Source: Parvivirga hydrogeniphila
Lineage (GTDB): Bacteria; Actinomycetota; Coriobacteriia; Anaerosomatales; Anaerosomataceae
DNA: 64,000 bases
Reading direction: 5' to 3'
Assembly (NCBI RefSeq): GCF_023371205.1
Contig: NZ_JAMCCO010000001.1
Coordinates: forward strand, 678,662 to 742,661
Notes under the pieces: model-generated
Told to the model about the DNA's origin: nothing
Databases searched by the model: none
The model's input: the letters and a program-made list of their open reading frames with translations, nothing else
Made by a program: the position numbers and the translations under genes
Part shown: positions 25,214-52,003 of the stretch, piece after piece
Layout: each line of letters starts with the position of its first letter
Numbering within the stretch: the stretch's first letter is position 1

Positions 25214-25512
25214 CAACCCAATACGGGAATGGCTGTGACGGGGACGAGTAGAGGCCAATCCTCGCTCCAGAGAGCCGGGGACGCTGGAATCCCGGTGCAG
25301 GACGTCTCGAACCTGGCCCCTGAGCCGCCTGGAAGAACGCCTCGACGCTGCGCGGACGACCTCCGCTCGGCGAGGGGCAAGTAGACCGGGTCGGTGGCAT
25401 CCGTTATCTGCCGTATGAGCGGGCGCGCGAGACATCGCGCGTCAATCAGGGTGGTACCGCGGGAGCACGCTCTCGTCCCTGGATGTGGGCGGCGCGTGCT
25501 GCGCGGTCTTTC
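25214..25512 (+). promoter_or_regulatory. T-box riboswitch (leucine-type specifier) controlling the ilv operon
   Basis: This fills the 404-base gap before ilvD. Stem I has the GACGAGTAGAGG left loop, the AGAGAGCC AG-bulge region (25270-25277) and the right loop GAAC-CTG-GCCCCTGAG, where the specifier codon reads CTG (25313-25315), leucine. The conserved AGTAGACCGGG and TATGAGCGGGC elements follow. The T-box motif AGGGTGGTACCGCGG lies at 25448-25462; its TGGT bulge suits a tRNA with discriminator A. A terminator is formed by CCGCG-GG-AGCACGC (25457-25470) with GCGTGCT-G-CGCGG (25494-25506) followed by TCTTTC. It excludes the antiterminator, so uncharged tRNA-Leu should switch transcription on. 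Confidence 0.93.
25457..25512 (+). terminator. T-box attenuator terminator
   Basis: The stem CCGCG..AGCACGC with GCGTGCT..CGCGG uses the 3' half of the T-box sequence itself and is followed by TCTTTC. It competes with the T-box antiterminator. Confidence 0.75.
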
Positions 25513-35805: not shown

Positions 35806-37074
<1,269 letters not shown>

Positions 37075-37097: not shown

Positions 37098-38864
37098 ATG
37101 GCGAGCTACAAGCGCGCGGGCGGAGCCGCCGCTCGGAGAGGGTCGCCTGACCCTCGCGCGCTCGCGCTCGTCGGGGCGTGCCTCGCGGGGCTGGCGCTCT
37201 CGGTTGTGGGGCGCTCTGCAGCCTCTGCCGTCGATGCCGCCGCGATCGCTACCGGCGTCGCTGGAGCCATTGGGGCGCTCGTGCTTGTGGCGCGGACCGA
37301 AGCGGAGCCGCGACTGCCACTGGGCGTCGTCGCTCCGCTGCTCGCATTCCTCGGCTGGTCGTTCGCGTGCGCTGTCGCATCCGGTCGCGGTCTGTCTGCG
37401 TTCATGGGCGAGCCGACCAACCTTCTCGGCTGGCTCGCGCTCGCCGCGCTTCTGTCTGTCGCTCTTGCGGCCGCCGCGTTGTCCGACGAGGTCGCGCGCT
37501 TGCTCGGCGTCGTCGCTCCTGCCGTCCTTGCGCTCGAGCTGGCCTTCGCCTTCTCGCAGGTGCTGACCCGGCAGCCCGTCCGAGGCACGCTTCCGAACTC
37601 GACCTACCTCGGCGAGCTCGTGGTGCTGCTGCTCCCCTTCGTGGCGCTGAGGCCGGAGGTGGTGCCGCCGCGGGCAGCGGACCTCCTCGCCCTCGGCGGC
37701 GTGGCGGTGCTCGCTGCAGGCGGGTCGCGCGTTGCTGCGCTCGCCGCAGGCGTGTGGCTTATCGTCGAGCACGTGCCGCGGCTCGCGAGGTCTGTTCGCG
37801 AGCGGGTGCTGTACGCTCTCGGCGCTGTCGCTTCAGCCGTTGCGGGCGCGCTTCTGTTCGCGCGCGAGGAGGTCTTCGGCTCGTTCTCGCCCGAAGCGTG
37901 GGGCGAGCGGCCGCTCATGTGGAGCGACGCGTGGCGCGCGACGCTCGCGCGCCCCGTGCTCGGCTTCGGTCCGGACGGGTTCGTGGCAGGCGGCGCGTCC
38001 GTCTCGACGGTCGAGCGGATGCAGCACGGGCCGGTGCTCGTCTACCGGCTGTACGGCGCGGTCGACCCGCACAGCGCGATCGCGTGGATCGCCGTCTCGA
38101 CGGGGCTCGTCGGCCTTGCGCTGACGGTGTGGTCGGGCGTGGAAGTCGTGCGTGCGTGGCGCGCCGCACCGCTTCCCGCGCACCGCCGCGCCGCCGTCTG
38201 GGCCGTGTGCATGGTGGCGGCCGTTCTGCTCACGGCTCCGCTGGTCATGCAGGTCGCGCCCGTGCTCGCGCTCGTCGCGGGCGTGTCGCTTCCACGGCCA
38301 CCTGCATCGCGCGCGGGCCTCGGACGTCGGGCGTGGGCGTCGCTGCTCGCGGCCCTGTGCCTGGCCTCGGCAGCGTTCGCGGCCGGTGCTCTGGTGCGGC
38401 TGCCGTTCGAGGCGCCGGATCAGGTACGGTCTCCGCGCGTCGCAGCCGCAGCGGCACGGGCCGCCGCGCTCGTGCGCGCAGACCCGTACCTGTGGTACCT
38501 CGCCTCGCAGCACCTCGGGTGGGGGATGCGCGCGGGCACGGTATCTGCCGCCGAGAGACCCGACCTTGCCGCAGCCATGCGGGCGAGCGAGCTCGACCGC
38601 AGAAGCCCCTTCTACGCGCTCGAAGCGGCGCGGACGCTCGTCTTCTACGACGCGCCGGCGTCTGACGTCGACGCAGCGTACGCGGAGGTCTTCCGGCGCT
38701 GGCCCGCGTTCCCGCTCGCGCACGCCGAGCGCGCGCGCTACCTCGCGAGCACGGGGCGCGTCCAGGAGGCGGTGCGCGAGGCGGCCGTCGCGCGCGCATT
38801 CGAAGGCGATGACCCGGAAGTGGCCGCTGCGCTCCGCGCAGTTGAAGAAATCTTAAAGAACTGA
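37098..38864 (+). CDS. O-antigen-ligase-like membrane protein with C-terminal TPR-like region
   Basis: 588 residues. About ten membrane helices fill residues 20-430. The Wzy_C/O-antigen-ligase loop is ARPVLGFGPDGFVAGG, then VYRLYGAVDPHSAIAWIAVSTGLVGLA, where the PHS-type motif is kept. The C-terminal part (about 450-588) is soluble, Ala/Arg-rich and helical with TPR-like pairs (AERARYLASTGRVQEAVREAAVAR). Such proteins are known as O-antigen ligases or protein O-oligosaccharyltransferases. Placed before cell-surface cytochrome genes, it may attach glycans to exported proteins, but this is inference. The ATG at 37098 has GGGGCGAGGGG upstream. Confidence 0.82.
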   Translation: MASYKRAGGAAARRGSPDPRALALVGACLAGLALSVVGRSAASAVDAAAIATGVAGAIGALVLVARTEAEPRLPLGVVAPLLAFLGWSFACAVASGRGLSAFMGEPTNLLGWLALAALLSVALAAAALSDEVARLLGVVAPAVLALELAFAFSQVLTRQPVRGTLPNSTYLGELVVLLLPFVALRPEVVPPRAADLLALGGVAVLAAGGSRVAALAAGVWLIVEHVPRLARSVRERVLYALGAVASAVAGALLFAREEVFGSFSPEAWGERPLMWSDAWRATLARPVLGFGPDGFVAGGASVSTVERMQHGPVLVYRLYGAVDPHSAIAWIAVSTGLVGLALTVWSGVEVVRAWRAAPLPAHRRAAVWAVCMVAAVLLTAPLVMQVAPVLALVAGVSLPRPPASRAGLGRRAWASLLAALCLASAAFAAGALVRLPFEAPDQVRSPRVAAAAARAAALVRADPYLWYLASQHLGWGMRAGTVSAAERPDLAAAMRASELDRRSPFYALEAARTLVFYDAPASDVDAAYAEVFRRWPAFPLAHAERARYLASTGRVQEAVREAAVARAFEGDDPEVAAALRAVEEILKN

Positions 38865-38896
38865 CCTTCCCGGCTGGATTCCGGTACGCGGTTTGC

Positions 38897-38902
38897 TACA
38901 CT
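38897..38902 (+). promoter_or_regulatory. -10 element before the TPR/NHL genes
   Basis: TACACT in TTTGCTACACTTG, 28 bases before the ATG at 38931, which has GAAAGGAG. No clear -35 is seen. Confidence 0.4.
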
Positions 38903-38930
38903 TGCGGTCGCTTGCCCGAAAGGAGACCGG

Positions 38931-39677
38931 ATGGCTCGATCGCGTCGCGCTGGCATCGACAGCCTCGAACGTTTGAAGCGAACGAACAGGCGGCTCGTGG
39001 TGGCGATGCTCATCACCGTCATCGGCGTGCTGCTCGTCATCGCGTGGGTGCTCGCCACGAACTTCCCGGGCCGGCAGACCCCGCGGACGTTCGAGGAGCG
39101 GCAGATCGCCATGCTCGAGACGGTCGTCAAGCAGAAACCGCAGTCCGAAAAGGCATGGGCCGACTACGTCCTCGCGCTCGTTGCCGCCAAGCAGTACTCG
39201 AAAGCCGATCAGGTCATCCGCCAAGCAGAGAAGGCCGTCGGCCCGAACGTGGTCGACATCTTGTACGTCAAGGCGCGGCTCGCGGCCGCTCGCGGTGACG
39301 CGGACGAGGCGCTCGCGCTTGTGGACAAGGCCATCAAGGCCGGCCTCGAGTTCCGGAAGAAGGAGCTCGAACGGTTGGCGGAACAGGGCACTTTCCCCGA
39401 TCCGAGGGTCATCAAAGGCCCGATCCTCGCCTCCGCGTACTACTTCCAGGCGCAACTGTACGCAGACGAGAAGAAGTGGCCAGAGGCCGCTGAGGCGCTC
39501 AGCAAGGCGCTCGACGAGGAGCCGACGTCCGCAGACGCTCTCGTGCTGCGCGGGACCGTGTACCTGAAGATGAGCGAGGTGGAGTCTGCGACCGCCGACT
39601 TCAAGCAGGCGTTGAAGTTCATCCCTGGCTACCAGCCGGCCCTCGATGGGTTGAAGGAAGCGGAGGCTGCCAAGTGA
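38931..39677 (+). CDS. Membrane-anchored TPR protein
   Basis: 248 residues with one N-terminal membrane helix (about 22-43, VVAMLITVIGVLLVIAWVLA) after a basic segment, so the body faces outward. TPR-type helix pairs run from about 60 to the end (SEKAWADYVLALVAAKQYSKADQVIRQAEKAV, VVDILYVKARLAAARGDADEALALVDKAI, ASAYYFQAQLYADEKKWPEAAEALSKALDEEPTSADALVLRGTVYLKMSEVESATADFKQAL). It probably scaffolds an extracytoplasmic complex. Its stop overlaps the start of the NHL gene (39674), so the two products are likely partners. Confidence 0.85.
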   Translation: MARSRRAGIDSLERLKRTNRRLVVAMLITVIGVLLVIAWVLATNFPGRQTPRTFEERQIAMLETVVKQKPQSEKAWADYVLALVAAKQYSKADQVIRQAEKAVGPNVVDILYVKARLAAARGDADEALALVDKAIKAGLEFRKKELERLAEQGTFPDPRVIKGPILASAYYFQAQLYADEKKWPEAAEALSKALDEEPTSADALVLRGTVYLKMSEVESATADFKQALKFIPGYQPALDGLKEAEAAK

Positions 39678-40912
39678 CGACACCTGAGTTCGACGGATCC
39701 GACGAGCAGGCGCCCGGGCTCACGGACGCTGAACGCGACGAGCGCGAGTACGAGCGCGCACGGCGGACGCGGCTGCTCTTGTCGGTCGGACTCGTTGTGC
39801 TGTTCGTGCTCCTGCTGACGGTCCTGGCGTTCGTCGCTCGGATCGTGACGCCCGTGGGCAAGCCGAATGCAGACGAGCTCCCGGAGGGCCTCACCTGGGT
39901 GCGGTCGATCTACGGCTGGGGAAACACCGAGGACACGCAGCTGTACGGCCCGTCGGACGTGGGCGTCGGCCCTGACGGTACCATCTGGGTGTCCGACTCG
40001 TCCCGGTTCCAGATCGTGGGGTTCACGCCGACCGGTGCGCTCAAGGCGATTCTCTCCCAGGGCAACGGGGCGATGTTCCCACAGTCGTTCGACGTCGCCG
40101 AGAACGGCGAGCTGTACGTCTGCGACTTCGCGCACGACCGCATCGTCGTGCTCACGCCGGACAACAAGGTGGTCCGCCAGTGGAAGGTCCAGTTGCCGAT
40201 GGAGATCGCCGTTCGCGGCGACCGGGTCGTCGTCGGCTCGCGGGCGGGCATCGCCGTGTACGACCGCCAGGGCAACGTCATCTCCTACTGGGGCCAGCGC
40301 GGCAGCGGACCTGATGACTTCGACGTGGTGCGCGGCATCGCCATCGGACCGGACGGGACGATCTACCTCTCGGACACGCAGAACGCGCGTCTGAAGGCGT
40401 ACTCGGAGAAAGGCGAGCTCAAGTGGGTCTACCCGAGCCCCGAGGAGATGAAGCGTTTCAAGAAGAACGCCAGTCTCGAGGAAACCGAGGCGGCGAAGGC
40501 GCCGTTCCAGATACCGGCGGGGATGACTTTCGATGGAGCGGGCCGGCTGCTCGTCGTCGACCCGTTCGAGTTCGCGATCATGAGCATCGACACCGCGAAC
40601 GGGCACGTCCTCGCGCGCTGGGGCGAGTTCGGCGAGCGTGACGGGTACTTCGGGTATCCGACCTCGATCGACTACGACCCAGCGCGGGACTGGTTCGTGG
40701 TCGCCGACACCGCGAACAACAGGGTGCAGATCGTCCGGTTGCCCGGAAGCGGCGGCGGAGTGGCCGCGGCCGTGCGCAGAGCGTGGGGCGGCCCGCTGTG
40801 GGCCTGCTACGGACCGCTCGTCCTGCTGCTGCTCGCCATCATCGTCGCTGCGACCAGCAGGCGGCGCACTCGGCGCGCCGCGTCGGGATCAGAGGCAGGC
40901 GAGGCAGAATGA
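39674..40912 (+). CDS. Membrane-anchored NHL-repeat beta-propeller protein
   Basis: 412 residues. An N-terminal cytoplasmic segment rich in charge, a membrane helix (about 33-57), then NHL/six-bladed propeller repeats (LYGPSDVGVGPDGTIWVSDSSRFQIVGF, FPQSFDVAENGELYVCDFAHDRIVVL, FDVVRGIAIGPDGTIYLSDTQNARLKAY, YPTSIDYDPARDWFVVADTANNRVQIV). A second membrane helix (about 377-395) leaves a basic tail. The propeller is therefore held outside between two anchors. NHL proteins commonly accompany multihaem cytochromes in anaerobes. The GTG at 39674 overlaps the TPR gene stop. Confidence 0.86.
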   Translation: MTTPEFDGSDEQAPGLTDAERDEREYERARRTRLLLSVGLVVLFVLLLTVLAFVARIVTPVGKPNADELPEGLTWVRSIYGWGNTEDTQLYGPSDVGVGPDGTIWVSDSSRFQIVGFTPTGALKAILSQGNGAMFPQSFDVAENGELYVCDFAHDRIVVLTPDNKVVRQWKVQLPMEIAVRGDRVVVGSRAGIAVYDRQGNVISYWGQRGSGPDDFDVVRGIAIGPDGTIYLSDTQNARLKAYSEKGELKWVYPSPEEMKRFKKNASLEETEAAKAPFQIPAGMTFDGAGRLLVVDPFEFAIMSIDTANGHVLARWGEFGERDGYFGYPTSIDYDPARDWFVVADTANNRVQIVRLPGSGGGVAAAVRRAWGGPLWACYGPLVLLLLAIIVAATSRRRTRRAASGSEAGEAE

Positions 40913-40936
40913 ACGCGCAAGAGAGCAGATTCCCTC

Positions 40937-40965
40937 TTGTGCTCAATCGAACAAGCGCCGATAAT
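40937..40965 (+). promoter_or_regulatory. Promoter of the cytochrome genes
   Basis: -35 TTGTGC (40937-40942), 17-base spacer, -10 GATAAT (40960-40965), then a leader of about 65 bases with AAGGAGGTGG (41017-41026). One of the better sigma-70-type promoters in the window, consistent with high expression of a secreted cytochrome. Confidence 0.65.
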
Positions 40966-41036
40966 GTGAGCATGGATGCTCCGCGTTGTTAAGACGCGTG
41001 CAGGATTCTTAAGCGAAAGGAGGTGGAACGGTACCC

Positions 41037-42176
41037 ATGAAAACCAATGCTACGGAGAGGGGAAATGCTATGGCTCGCAAATCGCTCTTCATCACGGCAA
41101 TCGTTGCGGTGATGGTGCTCGGCTTCGCCGTGTCGGCGTACGCTATCGGCCCCGTGTACATTACCTGGAACGCCGGTGGCGCCAACGCCGGTACGGGCGG
41201 CCCGCACCAGGACTATCGGCTCACCACCGAGAAGTGTGCGGTGTGCCACTCGGTGCACGCTGCGGCGGTCTCCAACGCGGCGGCTGGTGAATTCGGTCCA
41301 GATCCGATTGGCGCCGCTGAGACCCAGCTGTTGCTGCGTTCGTCTGTCGCTGATGCGTGCACCTACTGCCACATCACCACGAACGTCTCGGGCCTGCAGA
41401 TCTACAACGGCGTCGCGTCGAACTACACGACCGACGATCAGTACGGCCACAACGGCTCGACGTCGGCCGAGTGCGCTGACTGCCACGCCGTGCACGGCGC
41501 TGACACCTTCAAGGGCTTCATCGCCGGCAAGATCCTGAAGGCGCAAGGCAACCTCGTCAGCAACGTCAGCGGCGGTGTCCAGACCGAGGCTGCTGCGACG
41601 CTGAACACGCTCGTCAGTGGTGGCACCGTCTTCACGGCGCCGGCTGCGAGCGACGGCGACTACCAGGTCACCGCGTTCTGCACGCGCTGCCACAAGACGT
41701 TCTCGGACGCCTCCGAGACCACGATCACGGCCGGGGGGTACTTCGAGGAGTGGGACGGCAGCGTCACGTTCGGTTCGCGCTCCTACAAGAACCACCCGCT
41801 GAAGGCTGCCGAGGCCACGTTCGTCGCCAGCGGTGCGAACTACAGCGGCCGGGTGGCCTGGGCTGATGCGTACACCTGCCGCTCGTGCCACGCGGCCGGT
41901 AACAACCGCGTGTCGACCTCCTATGGCGGACCGGGCGGTCTCGTGTCCTGGTCGTTCCCGCACTGGACGAACGGCAACGCGCAGTTCCTGGTGTCCGGCT
42001 GGGGCGTCAGCGACGCCAACATCGGCCTTGGCACGTCCGGTGCCAACACGGGCAAGCCTTCCGGCTCTCACACCGTCATGGACGGCGCCGAGGACGGCGT
42101 GTGCCTGCGCTGCCACACCAACGGCTCGAGCGGCCCGCCGAACAACGCGACGGCCGGCGTGAACGTGACCTTCTAG
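41037..42176 (+). CDS. Secreted six-haem c-type cytochrome
   Basis: 379 residues (368 if started at the ATG at 41070). A signal peptide ends near SAYA (residue 36). Six CXXCH sites lie at 67-71, 108-112, 146-150, 215-219, 281-285 and 356-360. The first and third read CAVCHSVH and CADCHAVH. Seven further histidines (57, 74, 138, 153, 253, 309, 345) are enough to give every haem a distal His ligand. The rest is rich in Gly, Asn, Ser, Thr and Ala with no anchor or sorting motif, so it is probably released or assembled outside. The haem number equals that of filament-forming OmcS, but homology was not testable here. Both starts have good ribosome binding sites; 41037 has AGGAGGTGG. Confidence 0.9.
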   Translation: MKTNATERGNAMARKSLFITAIVAVMVLGFAVSAYAIGPVYITWNAGGANAGTGGPHQDYRLTTEKCAVCHSVHAAAVSNAAAGEFGPDPIGAAETQLLLRSSVADACTYCHITTNVSGLQIYNGVASNYTTDDQYGHNGSTSAECADCHAVHGADTFKGFIAGKILKAQGNLVSNVSGGVQTEAAATLNTLVSGGTVFTAPAASDGDYQVTAFCTRCHKTFSDASETTITAGGYFEEWDGSVTFGSRSYKNHPLKAAEATFVASGANYSGRVAWADAYTCRSCHAAGNNRVSTSYGGPGGLVSWSFPHWTNGNAQFLVSGWGVSDANIGLGTSGANTGKPSGSHTVMDGAEDGVCLRCHTNGSSGPPNNATAGVNVTF

Positions 42177-42291
42177 TCGCGTGACACGCATCCGTCCGTA
42201 GACGGATCGGAACGGACGGGCGGGACCTGGGGTATCCTGGGTCTCGCCCGCCGCTCATGTCTCGGCGTTCTTTCCACGAGGTGCTGACACA

Positions 42292-43305
42292 GTGCGTTCC
42301 TCTCTGTCCGACATCGCGCACGACTCGCGGGGCCCCCACGCGCGCAGGCGCGTGCAGGTGGCAGGCGCCCTCGTTGCCGTGGTCGCTGCGGTCCTCGTCA
42401 TCATCGGCGCTGGCTCGACGAACGCGGCGTGCCGCACCTGCCACGGCACGACGAGCGCAGCGGACGTCCCTGAGGCCCACGCCCGCGCCTCGTGCTACGC
42501 CTGTCACCTGCGCGACGGGGTCTGGAGCTGGCCGGGATCCAAGGTCCGCGAGATCTTCGTGATGTATCCGAAGGCCATCGCTGGCAAGCGGCCGTCGTCG
42601 GCGGGCGATCCCGTTTCGCGTGGCGCGTGCCTGCGCTGCCACGAGCAGGTCATGCGCCGCACGTCAGAGTCGAAGGGGCTCCGCATCTCGCACGCCGATT
42701 GCGCGCAGGGGCGCACCTGCGGTGCGTGCCACGCACGCGCCGCGCACGGCGAGAAGGTGCGGTGGGCGGGGCAGCCGGTGATGGAGGAGTGCGTCTCCTG
42801 CCACAAGCAGGCGGGCGCTCCGGCGGCGTGCGACGCCTGCCACTCCGAGAGAAGCGAGCGCGAACGGCTCGCGCGAGGGCCCTGGCAGGTGACCCACGGC
42901 CCTGGCTGGGAGCGCACGCACGGGATGGGGACGCTCGAGTGGTGCTCGACGTGCCATCCGGCCGGGTACTGCGCCCGGTGCCACGGTGTCGACCTGCCGC
43001 ACCCCGCAGACTTCGGTCGCACGCACGGCGCCTTCGCGAAACGGCCGGACGCGAAGTGCCTCACCTGCCACGACGCGACGACGCTCTGCGACTCGTGCCA
43101 CGGCGTCGAGATGCCGCACCCGAAGGGGTTCTTGGCCTCGCACTCGAAGGTGGCCGCATCCGCGAGCGACCCGAAGTGCTTGTCGTGCCACTTCCAGAAG
43201 GACTGCACCGCGTGTCACACGCTGCACATCCACCCCGGCTCCACCAACGGCACGGCCCGACTGCCCCGGCCCGGTGAGATCGGACTGGAGGGGGGCACGC
43301 CGTGA
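42292..43305 (+). CDS. Twelve-haem c-type cytochrome with N-terminal anchor
   Basis: 337 residues. An uncleaved or cleaved signal helix is at about 20-45, then twelve CXXCH sites (47, 68, 113, 143, 167, 180, 218, 227, 256, 266, 296 and 305 are the first cysteines). Two copies of a C..CHGVxxPHPxxFxxxH module are seen (CARCHGVDLPHPADFGRTH at 227 and CDSCHGVEMPHPKGFLASH at 266). The opening CRTCH..CYACH resembles NapC/NirT-type electron input. It probably passes electrons between the membrane and the outside. The GTG at 42292 has GAGGTG upstream; its stop overlaps the next start (GTGA). Confidence 0.9.
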   Translation: MRSSLSDIAHDSRGPHARRRVQVAGALVAVVAAVLVIIGAGSTNAACRTCHGTTSAADVPEAHARASCYACHLRDGVWSWPGSKVREIFVMYPKAIAGKRPSSAGDPVSRGACLRCHEQVMRRTSESKGLRISHADCAQGRTCGACHARAAHGEKVRWAGQPVMEECVSCHKQAGAPAACDACHSERSERERLARGPWQVTHGPGWERTHGMGTLEWCSTCHPAGYCARCHGVDLPHPADFGRTHGAFAKRPDAKCLTCHDATTLCDSCHGVEMPHPKGFLASHSKVAASASDPKCLSCHFQKDCTACHTLHIHPGSTNGTARLPRPGEIGLEGGTP

Positions 43306-44465
43306 GCGGGCCTGCAGAGACGCTTCACCGCGCGCTTCAGGCGATCCAAGAGGTCATCGCGGCGCCGATGGCGAACCTCGGCGCTGCCATGCTCTTGCTC
43401 GCAGCGCTCGCGCTGCTCTTGCTGATCGTCGTGACTGTGCTCGCGCTGCTGGTCCTGCCGTCGCCCAAGCCGCCGCGCGCCACGCGCTCGCGCACGACGG
43501 CGGCACGAACGGCGCGCGGCCCACAGAAGCGCGTGGTCTCTGGCGCTGGCATCATCGTCGCGCTTTTGGTTCTGGCGGCGCTGGTGGGCGGGTACGTCGG
43601 GACCTCGACGGACGACTACTGCGTGTCGTGCCACGCCGAGCAGTCGCTCACGCAAGCGCAGCCGGCGACCGGCTCGGCAGACGCGACGGCGAGCGCCGGT
43701 CTTGTCCACGCAGGCGTGCGGTGCGTCGCGTGTCACGAGGACCGTCTGCCGCTCGGGCTCGTCGACAACGTCTCTCAGCGGCTCCGGTGGGCGATCAAGG
43801 GCTTCGCGGGCGGGGATCCGAAGTCCGCCGATGCGAGCGTTCCGACTCGACGGTGCCTCGCGTGCCACCGCGCGATCCTTGCGCGGACAACGGAGTCCAC
43901 CGCCACCGGCGTGGCGATGTCCCACAAGGAGCCGGTGGCCGCCGGTGCCCCGTGCACGGACTGCCACAAGAACGCGGGCCACTCGGCAGGAGCGCAAGGC
44001 GTGTCGATGAACACGTGCCTCGCGTGCCACGATGGAACGACGGCCTCAGCCGACTGCGCCGTCTGCCACAAGAAGGACACCGCGTTCGCGGCACGCCAGC
44101 GTCGCACCTTCGCGCTCGTCCACCTGCCGCCGGTCACAGACTGCGGCGGCTGCCACGACCAGAAGGTCTGCGACGCGTGCCATGGGCTCAGGATGCCGCA
44201 CCCGCAGGCGTTCGTGGACGGCGGGCACGCGCGGTACGCCGGCTTCGAGAAGAAGATCCTGTGCTGGCGCTGCCACCAGTACACCGAGTGCGGCAAGTGC
44301 CACCAGGTCAAGCCGCCTGGCACGGGCGCGTGGGGGCACGGCACCGGTACCTGGTGGCGGTACGAACACGGCAGGGTGACGCCCAAGGGCGCGCAGGCCG
44401 GCTGCGGCTGCCACGTGAGAAGCCCGTACGCGCGAGCAGGGAACTACTGCAAGGCGTGCCACTGA
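43302..44465 (+). CDS. Membrane-bound eleven-haem NapC-like cytochrome
   Basis: 387 residues. Two membrane helices (about 25-53 and 82-100) flank a basic cytoplasmic loop. Eleven CXXCH sites follow, with first cysteines at 107, 141, 185, 218, 239, 252, 281, 290, 321, 330 and 383, the last forming the C-terminus CKACH. One shortened site CGCH lies at 368-371. The module CDACHGLRMPHPQAFVDGGH (290) is shared with the upstream cytochrome. The membrane anchor and the CVSCH..CVACHEDRLP start suit quinol oxidation. The GTG at 43302 overlaps the previous stop. It and the twelve-haem protein are likely a unit. Confidence 0.9.
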   Translation: MSGPAETLHRALQAIQEVIAAPMANLGAAMLLLAALALLLLIVVTVLALLVLPSPKPPRATRSRTTAARTARGPQKRVVSGAGIIVALLVLAALVGGYVGTSTDDYCVSCHAEQSLTQAQPATGSADATASAGLVHAGVRCVACHEDRLPLGLVDNVSQRLRWAIKGFAGGDPKSADASVPTRRCLACHRAILARTTESTATGVAMSHKEPVAAGAPCTDCHKNAGHSAGAQGVSMNTCLACHDGTTASADCAVCHKKDTAFAARQRRTFALVHLPPVTDCGGCHDQKVCDACHGLRMPHPQAFVDGGHARYAGFEKKILCWRCHQYTECGKCHQVKPPGTGAWGHGTGTWWRYEHGRVTPKGAQAGCGCHVRSPYARAGNYCKACH

Positions 44466-44556: not shown

Positions 44557-45054
44557 ATGCGATTCGAAGGCATCGCTCACCGCTACGGCCGCGACATCGA
44601 CACCGACGTCATCATCCCGGCCCGGTACCTCAACACGAGCGACCCGGACGAACTGGCGGCGCACTGCATGGAAGACCTCGACCCGTCGTTCGTCTCGAAG
44701 GTGCAGCCAGGCGACATCCTCGTGGCGGAGGAGAACTTCGGCTGCGGTTCGTCGCGCGAGCACGCGCCGATCGCGATCAAGCACGCAGGCGTGGCGGCGG
44801 TCATCGCCAAGAGCTTCGCGCGCATCTTCTACCGCAACGCCATCAACACCGGGCTGCCCATCCTCGAGTCGCCTGAAGCGGTCGACGGCATCCGCTCAGG
44901 GGACCGCGTCGCCATCGACGCGGACGCCGGCGTCATCACGAACCTCACCACCGGCCAGTCCTGGCAGGCGCAGCCATTCCCGCCGTTCATCCGCGAGATC
45001 ATCGAGCGCGGCGGGCTCGTCGCGTACGCGCGCGAGAAGGTGAGCGGGCGATGA
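44557..45054 (+). CDS. leuD: 3-isopropylmalate dehydratase, small subunit (set 2)
   Basis: 165 residues. [45 protein letters not shown] and [18 protein letters not shown] are the swivel-domain signatures of true LeuD ([10 protein letters not shown] against GMGSSREQAP in set 1). It partners LeuC at 35806. The ATG at 44557 has CAGGAGG. The stop overlaps the leuB start (ATGA). Confidence 0.95.
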
Positions 45055-49626: not shown

Positions 49627-49647
49627 GTGCATGTCAGCCGCCCGTGC

Positions 49648-49653
49648 TACAAT
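49648..49653 (+). promoter_or_regulatory. -10 element before the second CWB2 gene
   Basis: TACAAT, 37 bases before the GTG at 49691 and just past the FAH gene stop. The -35 region is weak. Confidence 0.4.
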
Positions 49654-49690
49654 CGCCCGCGTCGTCCCAAGACCCAGGAGGTGGCCGTTC

Positions 49691-52003
49691 GTGAAGCGTC
49701 TGCGCGCGCTGCTCGCTGCCGTCGTCGTGCTCTGGCTCGTGACGCCGGATGCCGCTCACGCGATTCCGCGGGACTTCTTCGACTTCCGCGCTGCGGGCCA
49801 GGCGGTGTACGAGGAGTTCGTCATCAGGCCTGAGCTGCACTACGAGGACGCCAACGGCACGCTCGTGGCGGTGTACCAAGGGTACGGTTTCGATCCGTAC
49901 GCGGCCGTCTACGACGTGGGCACAGGCGAGTGGCGGGGTCCGTGGCGCATCGCGGACAACCCGCTCGTCGGCGACGAGCACGGCGGTCCTGCGCTGATAG
50001 AAGACGCGCAGGGCTACTACCACGTGTTCTACGGCGCGCACAATTCGGTCATCCTGCACGCCCGGAGCGCAAGCCCGCACGACGCACGCCGGTGGATCGC
50101 GCTCGGGCCCGTCCTGCTCGGGAGCGCGGAGTCCTCGGCCGCGCCAGCAGCGGCGAAGGGCACGTACCCGCAGCCGTCGATCGACGCCAGCGGCACGGTG
50201 CGGCTGTTCTTTCGCAACAACGGCGGGCTTTTCAGCGACTGGGTGGTGGCCGAGAGCTCGGACGGGTGCACGACGTGGTCGGCTCCCGAGCAGGTGCTCG
50301 ACGGCGTTTCCGGGGAGTACGGGTGGTACGCGAGCTCCTGGGCCGAACCTGACGGCGACCTTCACGTCGTCGCCACGCGCCTCGACTATGATGCCTGGAA
50401 AGCCGACGCGTTCGCTCGCCAGGACCTCTACTACGTGAAGCGAGATGCCGAGACCGGCGCCTGGGAAAGTGCGGCAGGCGCACCGGTAGCGACGCCGCAC
50501 GACCGTTCCGCCCTCGACGCGACGTGCCTCGCGTACGCTTCAGAGGGCCGCTACCTCAACCAGCCGGTCGTTCGCGTGCGCGACGACGGGACGCCCGTCA
50601 TCGTGTTCGTCTCTGCTGATGCGACAGACCTCGACTCCTGCCGCTGGGAATCGGTGCGCTGGACGCCGGAAGAGGGCTCGTTCAGCCGGCCGGCGACGGT
50701 CGCAGACACGGACAACCTCTTCGATGCCGGCACGCTCCTCACCAACGGCGGAGGACTCGAGGCGTACCTCATCGTCGGGGGATACCCTGACGAGATGACT
50801 CCGGCCTGGTCGACCTCGCTCGCGACGCGCGGCGGCGACCTCGTCCGATTCACGTCCGACGACGGCGTCGCATGGCGTCGAGGCGATACCGTCCGGGCCG
50901 CGTCGGGGCCGTGGGAGCGCTTCAACAATCCGCAAGCACTTGCTTTGCCTGACGGCAGGCGAGCCGTCCTGTTCTGCGAGGGCGACAACGACTACACGTC
51001 GAGCGACTCGAAGGTCTTCCTGCAGATCGGCGAAGCGCCCGCATCGAGGGACTTCCGTGCGCGCGGCACGCGCCTGTCGGGAGACGACCGCTACGAGACC
51101 GCAGTCCAGGTGTCGCGCGAGGCGTTCCCGTCCTGCGCAACCACGGTGGTGGTCGCCACAGGCGAGGGGTTCGCAGACGCCGTCGCGGCAGCCCCGCTCG
51201 CGGCATCGCTCCGCGCGCCGCTGCTCCTCGTGCGCTCGAACCGGCTCGACGACGTCGTCGCAGCGGAGATCCGGCGGCTCGGCGCGCGGTACGCGATCAT
51301 CGTCGGAGGCCCGGGAGCGGTATCGGAAGACGTCGCACGGGCCGTCCGCGCACAGCTCACCAAGGAGCGCGGCGTGGAGCGGGTCGCCGGTGACGACAGG
51401 TACGGCACGTCGGCCGCGGTGGCGCGGCACATGACGGCCGTGCGCGGGGCCCCTCGTGGCCTCATGCTCGCCACCGGTGCGAACTTCCCGGACGCGCTTG
51501 CAGGCGGGGTGCTTGCGGCCCGCAAGAACATGCCGGTGCTTTTGACGCGCCCGAGCGAGATCCCGACGTCGGTTGCCGAGGTCGTGGCTGAGACAGCTCC
51601 AGAGGAGCTGGTCGTGCTCGGTGAAGAGACGGCCGTGAGCGGTGCGGTGGTGGCGCACGCGCTGGAACTCGCTCCGGGCGCTGCATCGACGCGTCTGGGC
51701 GGAGCGACGCGATACGATACGGCCGCTGCCGTCGTCGAGCACGCGCTGGCGCGCGGCATCACGATGGAGCGCTTCGTCGTGTGCACGGGAGAGGACTTCC
51801 CGGACGCGCTCACGGCGAGCGTGCTCGCTGCTAGGCGGAACAGCGCCGTCATCTTCACCCGACGCTACGAGCTTCCCGGCCCCAGTGCGACGATCGTCCG
51901 CGAGCACCGTCGCGACGTGCTCGTATGGAACGTCGTCGGCGGGACGGGCGCGGTCGGCACGAGCGTGTCGAGTGCGCTTGCTGCCATCGTCGCGGAACCG
52001 TAA
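49691..52003 (+). CDS. Secreted BNR/sialidase-like propeller protein with three CWB2 repeats
   Basis: 770 residues from a GTG at 49691, chosen for the AGGAGGTGG upstream and the signal peptide (MKRLRALLAAVVVLWLVTPDAAHA). Residues about 30-455 have beta-propeller/BNR-like repeats (VYQGYGFDPYAAVYDVGTGEW, SSDGCTTWSAPEQV, TSDDGVAWRRGDTV). Three CWB2 repeats fill about 460-770, opening with LSGDDRYETAVQVS, VAGDDRYGTSAAVA and LGGATRYDTAAAVV. It should sit non-covalently on the wall and may bind or cut surface glycans. No sialidase catalytic set could be confirmed. It shares its anchoring module with the protein at 7051. Confidence 0.9.
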   Translation: MKRLRALLAAVVVLWLVTPDAAHAIPRDFFDFRAAGQAVYEEFVIRPELHYEDANGTLVAVYQGYGFDPYAAVYDVGTGEWRGPWRIADNPLVGDEHGGPALIEDAQGYYHVFYGAHNSVILHARSASPHDARRWIALGPVLLGSAESSAAPAAAKGTYPQPSIDASGTVRLFFRNNGGLFSDWVVAESSDGCTTWSAPEQVLDGVSGEYGWYASSWAEPDGDLHVVATRLDYDAWKADAFARQDLYYVKRDAETGAWESAAGAPVATPHDRSALDATCLAYASEGRYLNQPVVRVRDDGTPVIVFVSADATDLDSCRWESVRWTPEEGSFSRPATVADTDNLFDAGTLLTNGGGLEAYLIVGGYPDEMTPAWSTSLATRGGDLVRFTSDDGVAWRRGDTVRAASGPWERFNNPQALALPDGRRAVLFCEGDNDYTSSDSKVFLQIGEAPASRDFRARGTRLSGDDRYETAVQVSREAFPSCATTVVVATGEGFADAVAAAPLAASLRAPLLLVRSNRLDDVVAAEIRRLGARYAIIVGGPGAVSEDVARAVRAQLTKERGVERVAGDDRYGTSAAVARHMTAVRGAPRGLMLATGANFPDALAGGVLAARKNMPVLLTRPSEIPTSVAEVVAETAPEELVVLGEETAVSGAVVAHALELAPGAASTRLGGATRYDTAAAVVEHALARGITMERFVVCTGEDFPDALTASVLAARRNSAVIFTRRYELPGPSATIVREHRRDVLVWNVVGGTGAVGTSVSSALAAIVAEP

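Follow-up and report, generated by a model that had tools for sequence, protein, structure and literature searches.

A candidate cell-envelope electron-export unit of multihaem cytochromes in Parvivirga hydrogeniphila and other monoderm Actinomycetota

Described multihaem systems and the Parvivirga locus

How Gram-positive metal reducers move electrons across a thick cell wall, with no outer-membrane conduit to carry them, has yet to be settled, and a locus of Parvivirga hydrogeniphila that bears on this question is analyzed here. Within a stretch of 64,000 nucleotides (contig NZ_JAMCCO010000001.1, positions 678,662 to 742,661; the whole of it is called the window below), six co-directional genes at positions 37098–44465 encode an O-antigen-ligase-like protein, a tetratricopeptide-repeat (TPR) protein, an NHL β-propeller, a secreted hexahaem cytochrome, a 12-haem cytochrome and a NapC-like membrane cytochrome. 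The last five are read, with a probability of about 0.6, as a unit for electron export at the cell envelope that is conserved among monoderm Actinomycetota. According to the species description, strain Es71-Z0120T is a Gram-positive, thermophilic member of the Anaerosomatales (Actinomycetota) that grows with H2 or formate as the donor and with Fe(III) as its obligate and sole acceptor (PMC9686372).

A comparable arrangement is found in Dethiobacter alkaliphilus, which is likewise Gram-positive and whose multihaem clusters hold NHL and TPR genes beside genes for secreted and CymA-like multihaem proteins; an assembly or orientation role has been suggested for the NHL and TPR products (PMC10376724). 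Of the cytochromes that increase with ferrihydrite or thiosulfate, most are encoded in those clusters, which counts in favor of an electron-export role here. Compared by description only, they are larger, with flavoproteins and ABC transporters, whereas the fixed five-gene order, the 12-histidine signature, the stem-loop and the leu-operon site of the present locus are not described for Dethiobacter in the available part of that source (PMC10376724). The extracellular electron transfer chain of Carboxydothermus ferrireducens and Thermincola (OmhA, SmhA-C, OcwA) also belongs to monoderms and combines secreted multihaem proteins with candidate quinol-oxidising ones, but the cytochrome genes of C. 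ferrireducens are mostly scattered (PMC7829351). Metagenome-assembled genomes (MAGs) of Thermincola encode a hexahaem protein that repeats in its C-terminal half, almost unchanged, the order of haems and histidines in the secreted cytochrome of the window; at 806 aa, it differs from the latter in a long N-terminal extension, and its loci showed no TPR or 12-haem partners. In two Thermincola ferriacetica MAGs (L134 and L135), this gene precedes one for a 31–32-haem protein of ~2,480 aa, still open at the end of the locus, and in one of the two (L134) an NHL gene is called directly 5' of it.

The Geobacter OmcS filament resembles the secreted cytochrome in its six haems, its secretion and its CxxCHxxH motifs, but it works beyond an outer membrane, and homology between the two was not established by profile searches, hhalign or shuffled sequences. 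NHL and TPR genes had been expected to flank Geobacter omcS as well; this was not borne out, the named neighbors being otherwise annotated (PMC10599522). MtrCAB and other porin-cytochrome conduits share with the locus a succession of multihaem proteins (membrane, intermediate and terminal), whereas the host has a Gram-positive wall (PMC9686372), no outer membrane and no barrel; among the six genes, no Pfam match to an outer-membrane barrel was found. The species description does list three adjacent multihaem genes common to both strains, MCL4078710-12, two as quinol-oxidising and one as an MtrA homologue (PMC9686372). By their content, these are probably the three cytochromes of the module; together with the NHL/TPR precedent in Dethiobacter (PMC10376724), they make the original prediction of an undescribed system too strong. 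What has no description that could be found in the open-access literature is the fixed unit, its spread in the Actinomycetota, the 12-histidine signature and the conserved stem-loop.

Conservation of the unit and its secreted subunit

All six open reading frames are intact, and their predicted types and topologies, together with CXXCH counts of 6, 12 and 11 in the three cytochromes, were confirmed as first proposed. Across the order, the unit runs TPR, NHL, secreted cytochrome (with six or four haems), 12-haem cytochrome and NapC-like cytochrome. Twenty loci were called around the NHL gene (18 from relatives, the other two from the genome that holds the window), and a scan of named genomes gave 53 Coriobacteriia loci that overlap with the former set, many contigs being the same; the loci are related by descent, thus their counts are not independent events. 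In the 53 loci, a same-strand TPR gene lies directly upstream of NHL in 47 of 58 cases, a multihaem gene lies directly downstream of NHL in 47 of 56, and every 12-haem gene is in tandem with a NapC-like gene (32/32). Because the order recurs across the Anaerosomatales and the tandem pair is without exception, the gene order is not chance, and the co-inherited electron-transfer unit envisaged for a monoderm, with a membrane NapC-like protein, a 12-haem protein, a secreted hexahaem protein and putative anchored scaffolds, does recur in relatives. A second, diverged copy is found in the host genome itself (G000:C2:280000-298000; L061, L062), with 12-haem, 10-haem, TPR, NHL, 4-haem and 3-haem genes; nearby lie genes taken by eye for a Rex-like regulator and a ResB-like protein, as well as genes for a 33-haem cytochrome of 1318 aa and a 14-haem cytochrome.

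The NHL family is present at E≤1e-30 in 75 of the 149 genomes of a class sample; for families f18, f19 and f22, the members listed give no match at this threshold. A profile of the secreted cytochrome matched 22 genomes of other Actinomycetota families among 296 sampled, and the NHL family occurs in all 14 such genomes that were searched, which were chosen for their cytochrome matches, mostly beside a cytochrome. TPR-NHL-hexahaem arrangements and 12-haem/NapC-like pairs recur in these other-family loci, the gene caller being poor on the low-GC ones. The co-occurrence on which the original prediction had been made to depend is therefore present in the Coriobacteriia and, in part, in other Actinomycetota families.

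The secreted hexahaem cytochrome (41070..42176, + strand), with a signal peptide at residues 1–25 and six CXXCH motifs, is the putative terminal or fiber-forming subunit. An alignment of 34 homologues, including the Thermincola protein at 20% identity, holds exactly 12 columns with at least 50% histidine, each kept in at least 32 of the 34 sequences; six belong to the CXXCH motifs and six are others, including that of an N-terminal P-H-x-x-Y. Since 12 is the number of histidines needed for six bis-His haems, the pattern favors an electron carrier over an enzyme that keeps one haem open. The protein thus combines an export signal with a second histidine available to each haem (six proximal and six distal), as looked for in a filament subunit, and it has compact CxxCHxxH motifs and a short C-terminal G-V/I-G-x-x-F/Y tail that is common among its homologues. 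Its score against the OmcA/MtrC decahaem family TIGR03507 (38.3 bits) falls far below the cut-off of 209.3 bits. Matches to YajL span a stretch with one haem motif and were taken as chance. In two loci of other families, the secreted cytochrome is 75–77% identical to that of the window (L067 in genome G042; NHL 53%, TPR 45%, 12-haem 47%) or 68–69% identical (L066 in G028; NHL 59%), and exchange of the secreted subunit alone is possible there.

The 3' side of this gene carries a GC-rich stem-loop with a 16-bp stem (42215..42252, + strand), proposed to be a terminator or an mRNA-processing hairpin. Under the definition used (a GC-rich stem of at least 11 pairs, no more than 110 nt after the stop codon), such a stem-loop follows the secreted cytochrome gene in 35 of 43 loci and in none of the 43 shuffled versions. 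It follows the other module genes in 5 of 177 cases (TPR 0/48, NHL 1/58, 12-haem 2/37 and NapC-like 2/34). The Fisher test of this difference (p=1.4e-27) is overstated, since the loci are related, and the other genes mostly abut the next coding sequence, so some of the difference comes from comparing a gap with no gap; against the shuffles, the signal holds in its own right. In the window, the intergenic stretch after the hexahaem gene has a fold z of −4.4. Stem sequences differ from locus to locus, and for this reason the conserved feature is suggested to be structure rather than sequence. Some copies in other families (L154, L158) have a T-rich stretch 3' of the stem, as in an intrinsic terminator, and other loci of those families lack a strong stem. 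Scans for promoter and terminator consensus sequences in turn gave no more than chance matches, the stem-loop having come from comparison between genomes instead. We infer that, through the stem-loop, the secreted subunit can be produced independently of the two membrane cytochromes, and probably in greater amount than they are. The codon adaptation of the hexahaem gene (0.707) is the highest of the six module genes and near the ribosomal mean (0.699); its rank, just 29 of 146, makes this weak support for high expression.

A putative electron path and its alternatives

Downstream of the stem-loop, the 12-haem cytochrome (42292..43305, + strand; identified by profile search) has one N-terminal signal anchor and 12 CXXCH motifs; one transmembrane segment (TM) is predicted in 39/39 relatives, where all TM counts rest on hydropathy only, and 12 CXXCH motifs are found in 35/39. 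The NapC-like cytochrome (43302..44465, + strand) has two TM, as do 29 of 32 relatives, and its TM and first haem region (residues 80–146) match PF03264 at 35.9 bits over a gathering threshold of 24.1, as in the N-terminal region of NapC, NirT and CymA. It departs from the classical make-up of 4–5 haems and a single anchor in having an extra TM and 11 CXXCH motifs plus one CXCH, and quinol oxidation by it is putative. A contracted haem motif of this kind would be unusual; since the aligned column is haem-like (Cys-His) in 32/32 relatives, as CXCH in a subset and as CXXCH in others, a twelfth haem site is likely at residues 368–371 (44403–44414), which would bring the total to ~12. In some relatives, the NapC-like cytochrome has CX3CH as its first and last haem motifs. 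It and the 12-haem protein match each other in sequence, with ~24–31% identity among relatives, and are probably paralogues.

Upstream of the hexahaem gene, the TPR protein (38931..39677, + strand; profile match), a proposed scaffold, has one N-terminal TM, as do 44/44 relatives, and the NHL β-propeller (39674..40912, + strand; PF01436, E=1.3e-21), a proposed assembly factor, has a TM at each of its N- and C-terminal ends, two being predicted in 55/59 relatives. Such uniform topologies count for the export reading, in which the NapC-like and 12-haem cytochromes would sit as a working pair at the outer face of the cytoplasmic membrane, receive electrons at the membrane (from quinol, or by way of another carrier from hydrogenase or formate dehydrogenase) and relay them into the cell wall. 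The exported hexahaem cytochrome would accept them at or beyond the wall, its separate and probably larger production being set by the stem-loop, which may cut or stabilize the transcript. The TPR and NHL proteins, anchored in the membrane and encoded immediately 5' of the hexahaem gene, may form its assembly, export or docking scaffold, and the ligase-like protein could be an optional glycosylation or cell-wall-polymer factor. A small recurrent unit of this kind in a cultured thermophile, with its gene order fixed, its topologies uniform and an expression boundary marked out, offers defined parts that can be tested, for instance for the identity of the exported protein and for what is held by the NHL propeller; it also provides a search key for environmental Actinomycetota, which are known mostly from MAGs.

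Several observations weigh against this reading. Some TPR-NHL pairs have no cytochrome next to them, and the codon bias of the hexahaem gene is just moderate, with leuC and leuD scoring higher. Quinones were undetected in Es71-Z0120T (PMC9686372), although mqnE, a MqnA-family gene and mqnC lie together in the host genome (mqnE and mqnC over their cut-offs); the quinone pool is thus a possible rather than a secured source of electrons for the NapC-like protein. Moreover, the unit is present in a locus of the same family (L074) that is likely from Anaerosoma tenue, for which the same source gives no reduction of Fe(III), ferrihydrite or AQDS (PMC9686372). Because this likely non-reducer carries the unit, the unit is insufficient for Fe(III) reduction. 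The host also has further multihaem clusters, including 33- and 14-haem proteins, and the species description favors another cluster for Fe(III) reduction (PMC9686372); such clusters may matter more for this process in P. hydrogeniphila. The extracellular electron transfer originally predicted is consistent with an obligate Fe(III) reducer as the host, but a role with insoluble acceptors would be an extrapolation, given the unit in L074.

A stronger form of the export reading, in which the hexahaem cytochrome polymerizes into an extracellular filament (nanowire) and TPR and NHL are dedicated to its assembly, is tentative and rather doubtful. A monoderm filament would then run through the wall, be nucleated and docked by NHL and TPR and be charged directly by the 12-haem/NapC-like pair, with no porin involved. 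The six haems, as in OmcS, the stand-alone secreted subunit with its own expression signals, and the CxxCHxxH motifs with the conserved C-terminal tail fit a filament, as does a weak profile match to OmcS (6ef8, E=1.5e-4); but 6i5b and a reaction-centre cytochrome outscore OmcS in the profile search, and the six conserved distal histidines could all serve within one subunit. With an incomplete OmcS sequence (lacking residues 1–7, 56–114 and the last two), the single-sequence test gave 30.9 bits versus a shuffle maximum of 28.7, and the hhalign alignment covers 31 columns; low E-values from hhalign can come from haem motifs alone, as comparison with the two other module cytochromes shows. AlphaFold models of the window protein (29 sequences; pLDDT 46.6, pTM 0.44) and of a compact homologue (34 sequences; pLDDT 47.0, pTM 0.38) were too poor for fold comparison. 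The strain has pili-like appendages that appear solely with ferrihydrite (PMC9686372), which would suit a nanowire. The genome has type IV pilus machinery genes that may make these appendages, and because of them the appendages were rejected as proof of nanowires. To our knowledge, no protein filament is as thin as 0.8–0.9 nm. This width, given for the appendages in the species description (PMC9686372), is possibly a unit slip. If the filament were real, it would represent a nanowire system that has assembly proteins of its own and is spread through several Actinomycetota families, perhaps with a reduced form in Bacillota such as Thermincola.

NapC-like donors usually serve soluble reductases, and the unit might accordingly serve respiration of soluble or sulfur acceptors, or electron storage, rather than solid acceptors, which is judged unlikely. 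The presence of the unit in L074, probably from A. tenue, a user of thiosulfate and sulfur but not of Fe(III) (PMC9686372), speaks for it, as does the response of the Dethiobacter clusters to thiosulfate as well as ferrihydrite (PMC10376724); on the other hand, P. hydrogeniphila is restricted to Fe(III) (PMC9686372), profile searches of the six genes found no recognizable catalytic subunit, and a conserved distal histidine for each of the six haems leaves no obvious open catalytic haem. It is less probable still that the cytochromes alone are the functional unit, with NHL, TPR and the ligase-like protein as neighbors having general envelope roles: the ligase-like gene does vary in place and strand and some TPR-NHL pairs stand apart from cytochromes, but TPR, NHL and cytochrome genes stay next to one another in several families of one phylum, and an NHL gene beside a hexahaem gene is also seen in Thermincola. 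Multihaem relays are reversible in principle, and the chain could instead take electrons in, with Fe(II), electrodes or partner cells as their source. Uptake from Fe(II)-bearing minerals has been discussed for Dethiobacter strains that have similar clusters (PMC10376724), but P. hydrogeniphila uses H2 or formate as donors for growth with Fe(III), no growth by uptake is reported in the available part of its description (PMC9686372), and this direction is the most improbable of these alternatives.

The accessory gene, the leu operon and other features

The first of the six genes (37098..38864, + strand) encodes a polytopic membrane protein of 588 aa with ~10 TM-like segments, which falls in the Wzy_C (O-antigen ligase) superfamily PF04932 at 40.2 bits versus a gathering threshold of 31.7. 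Its relatives occur in 20 of the 53 loci only, in varying places and on either strand, and it is therefore treated as an accessory that is loosely linked to the unit. The single six-gene module proposed at the outset is thus reduced to five genes in recurrent order plus this loose partner. A membrane protein of 579 aa beside the second copy of the unit (L061) weakly matches the IctB-type family TIGR00947; glycan transfer to protein or polymer is for this reason one candidate function of the ligase-like protein among those of the superfamily.

The loose linkage of the ligase-like gene and the place of the unit inside the leu operon both go beyond what had been predicted. The module is inserted in a branched-chain amino-acid region, between leuC (35806..37074, + strand; assigned by open reading frame and synteny), which ends 23 bases 5' of the first module gene, and leuD (44557..45054, + strand), which starts 91 bases after the last. 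Leu or ilv genes are present in the loci of 26 of 61 NHL genes, and the unit often lies exactly between leuC and leuD; from this position across relatives, the unit appears to have traveled together with the leu genes over a large part of the Anaerosomatales. Elsewhere in the window, an ordinary T-box leader (25226–25483) lies upstream of the ilv genes, and an exported protein of 790 aa (49631–52003) has repeats that, judged by eye, resemble cell-wall-binding repeat 2.

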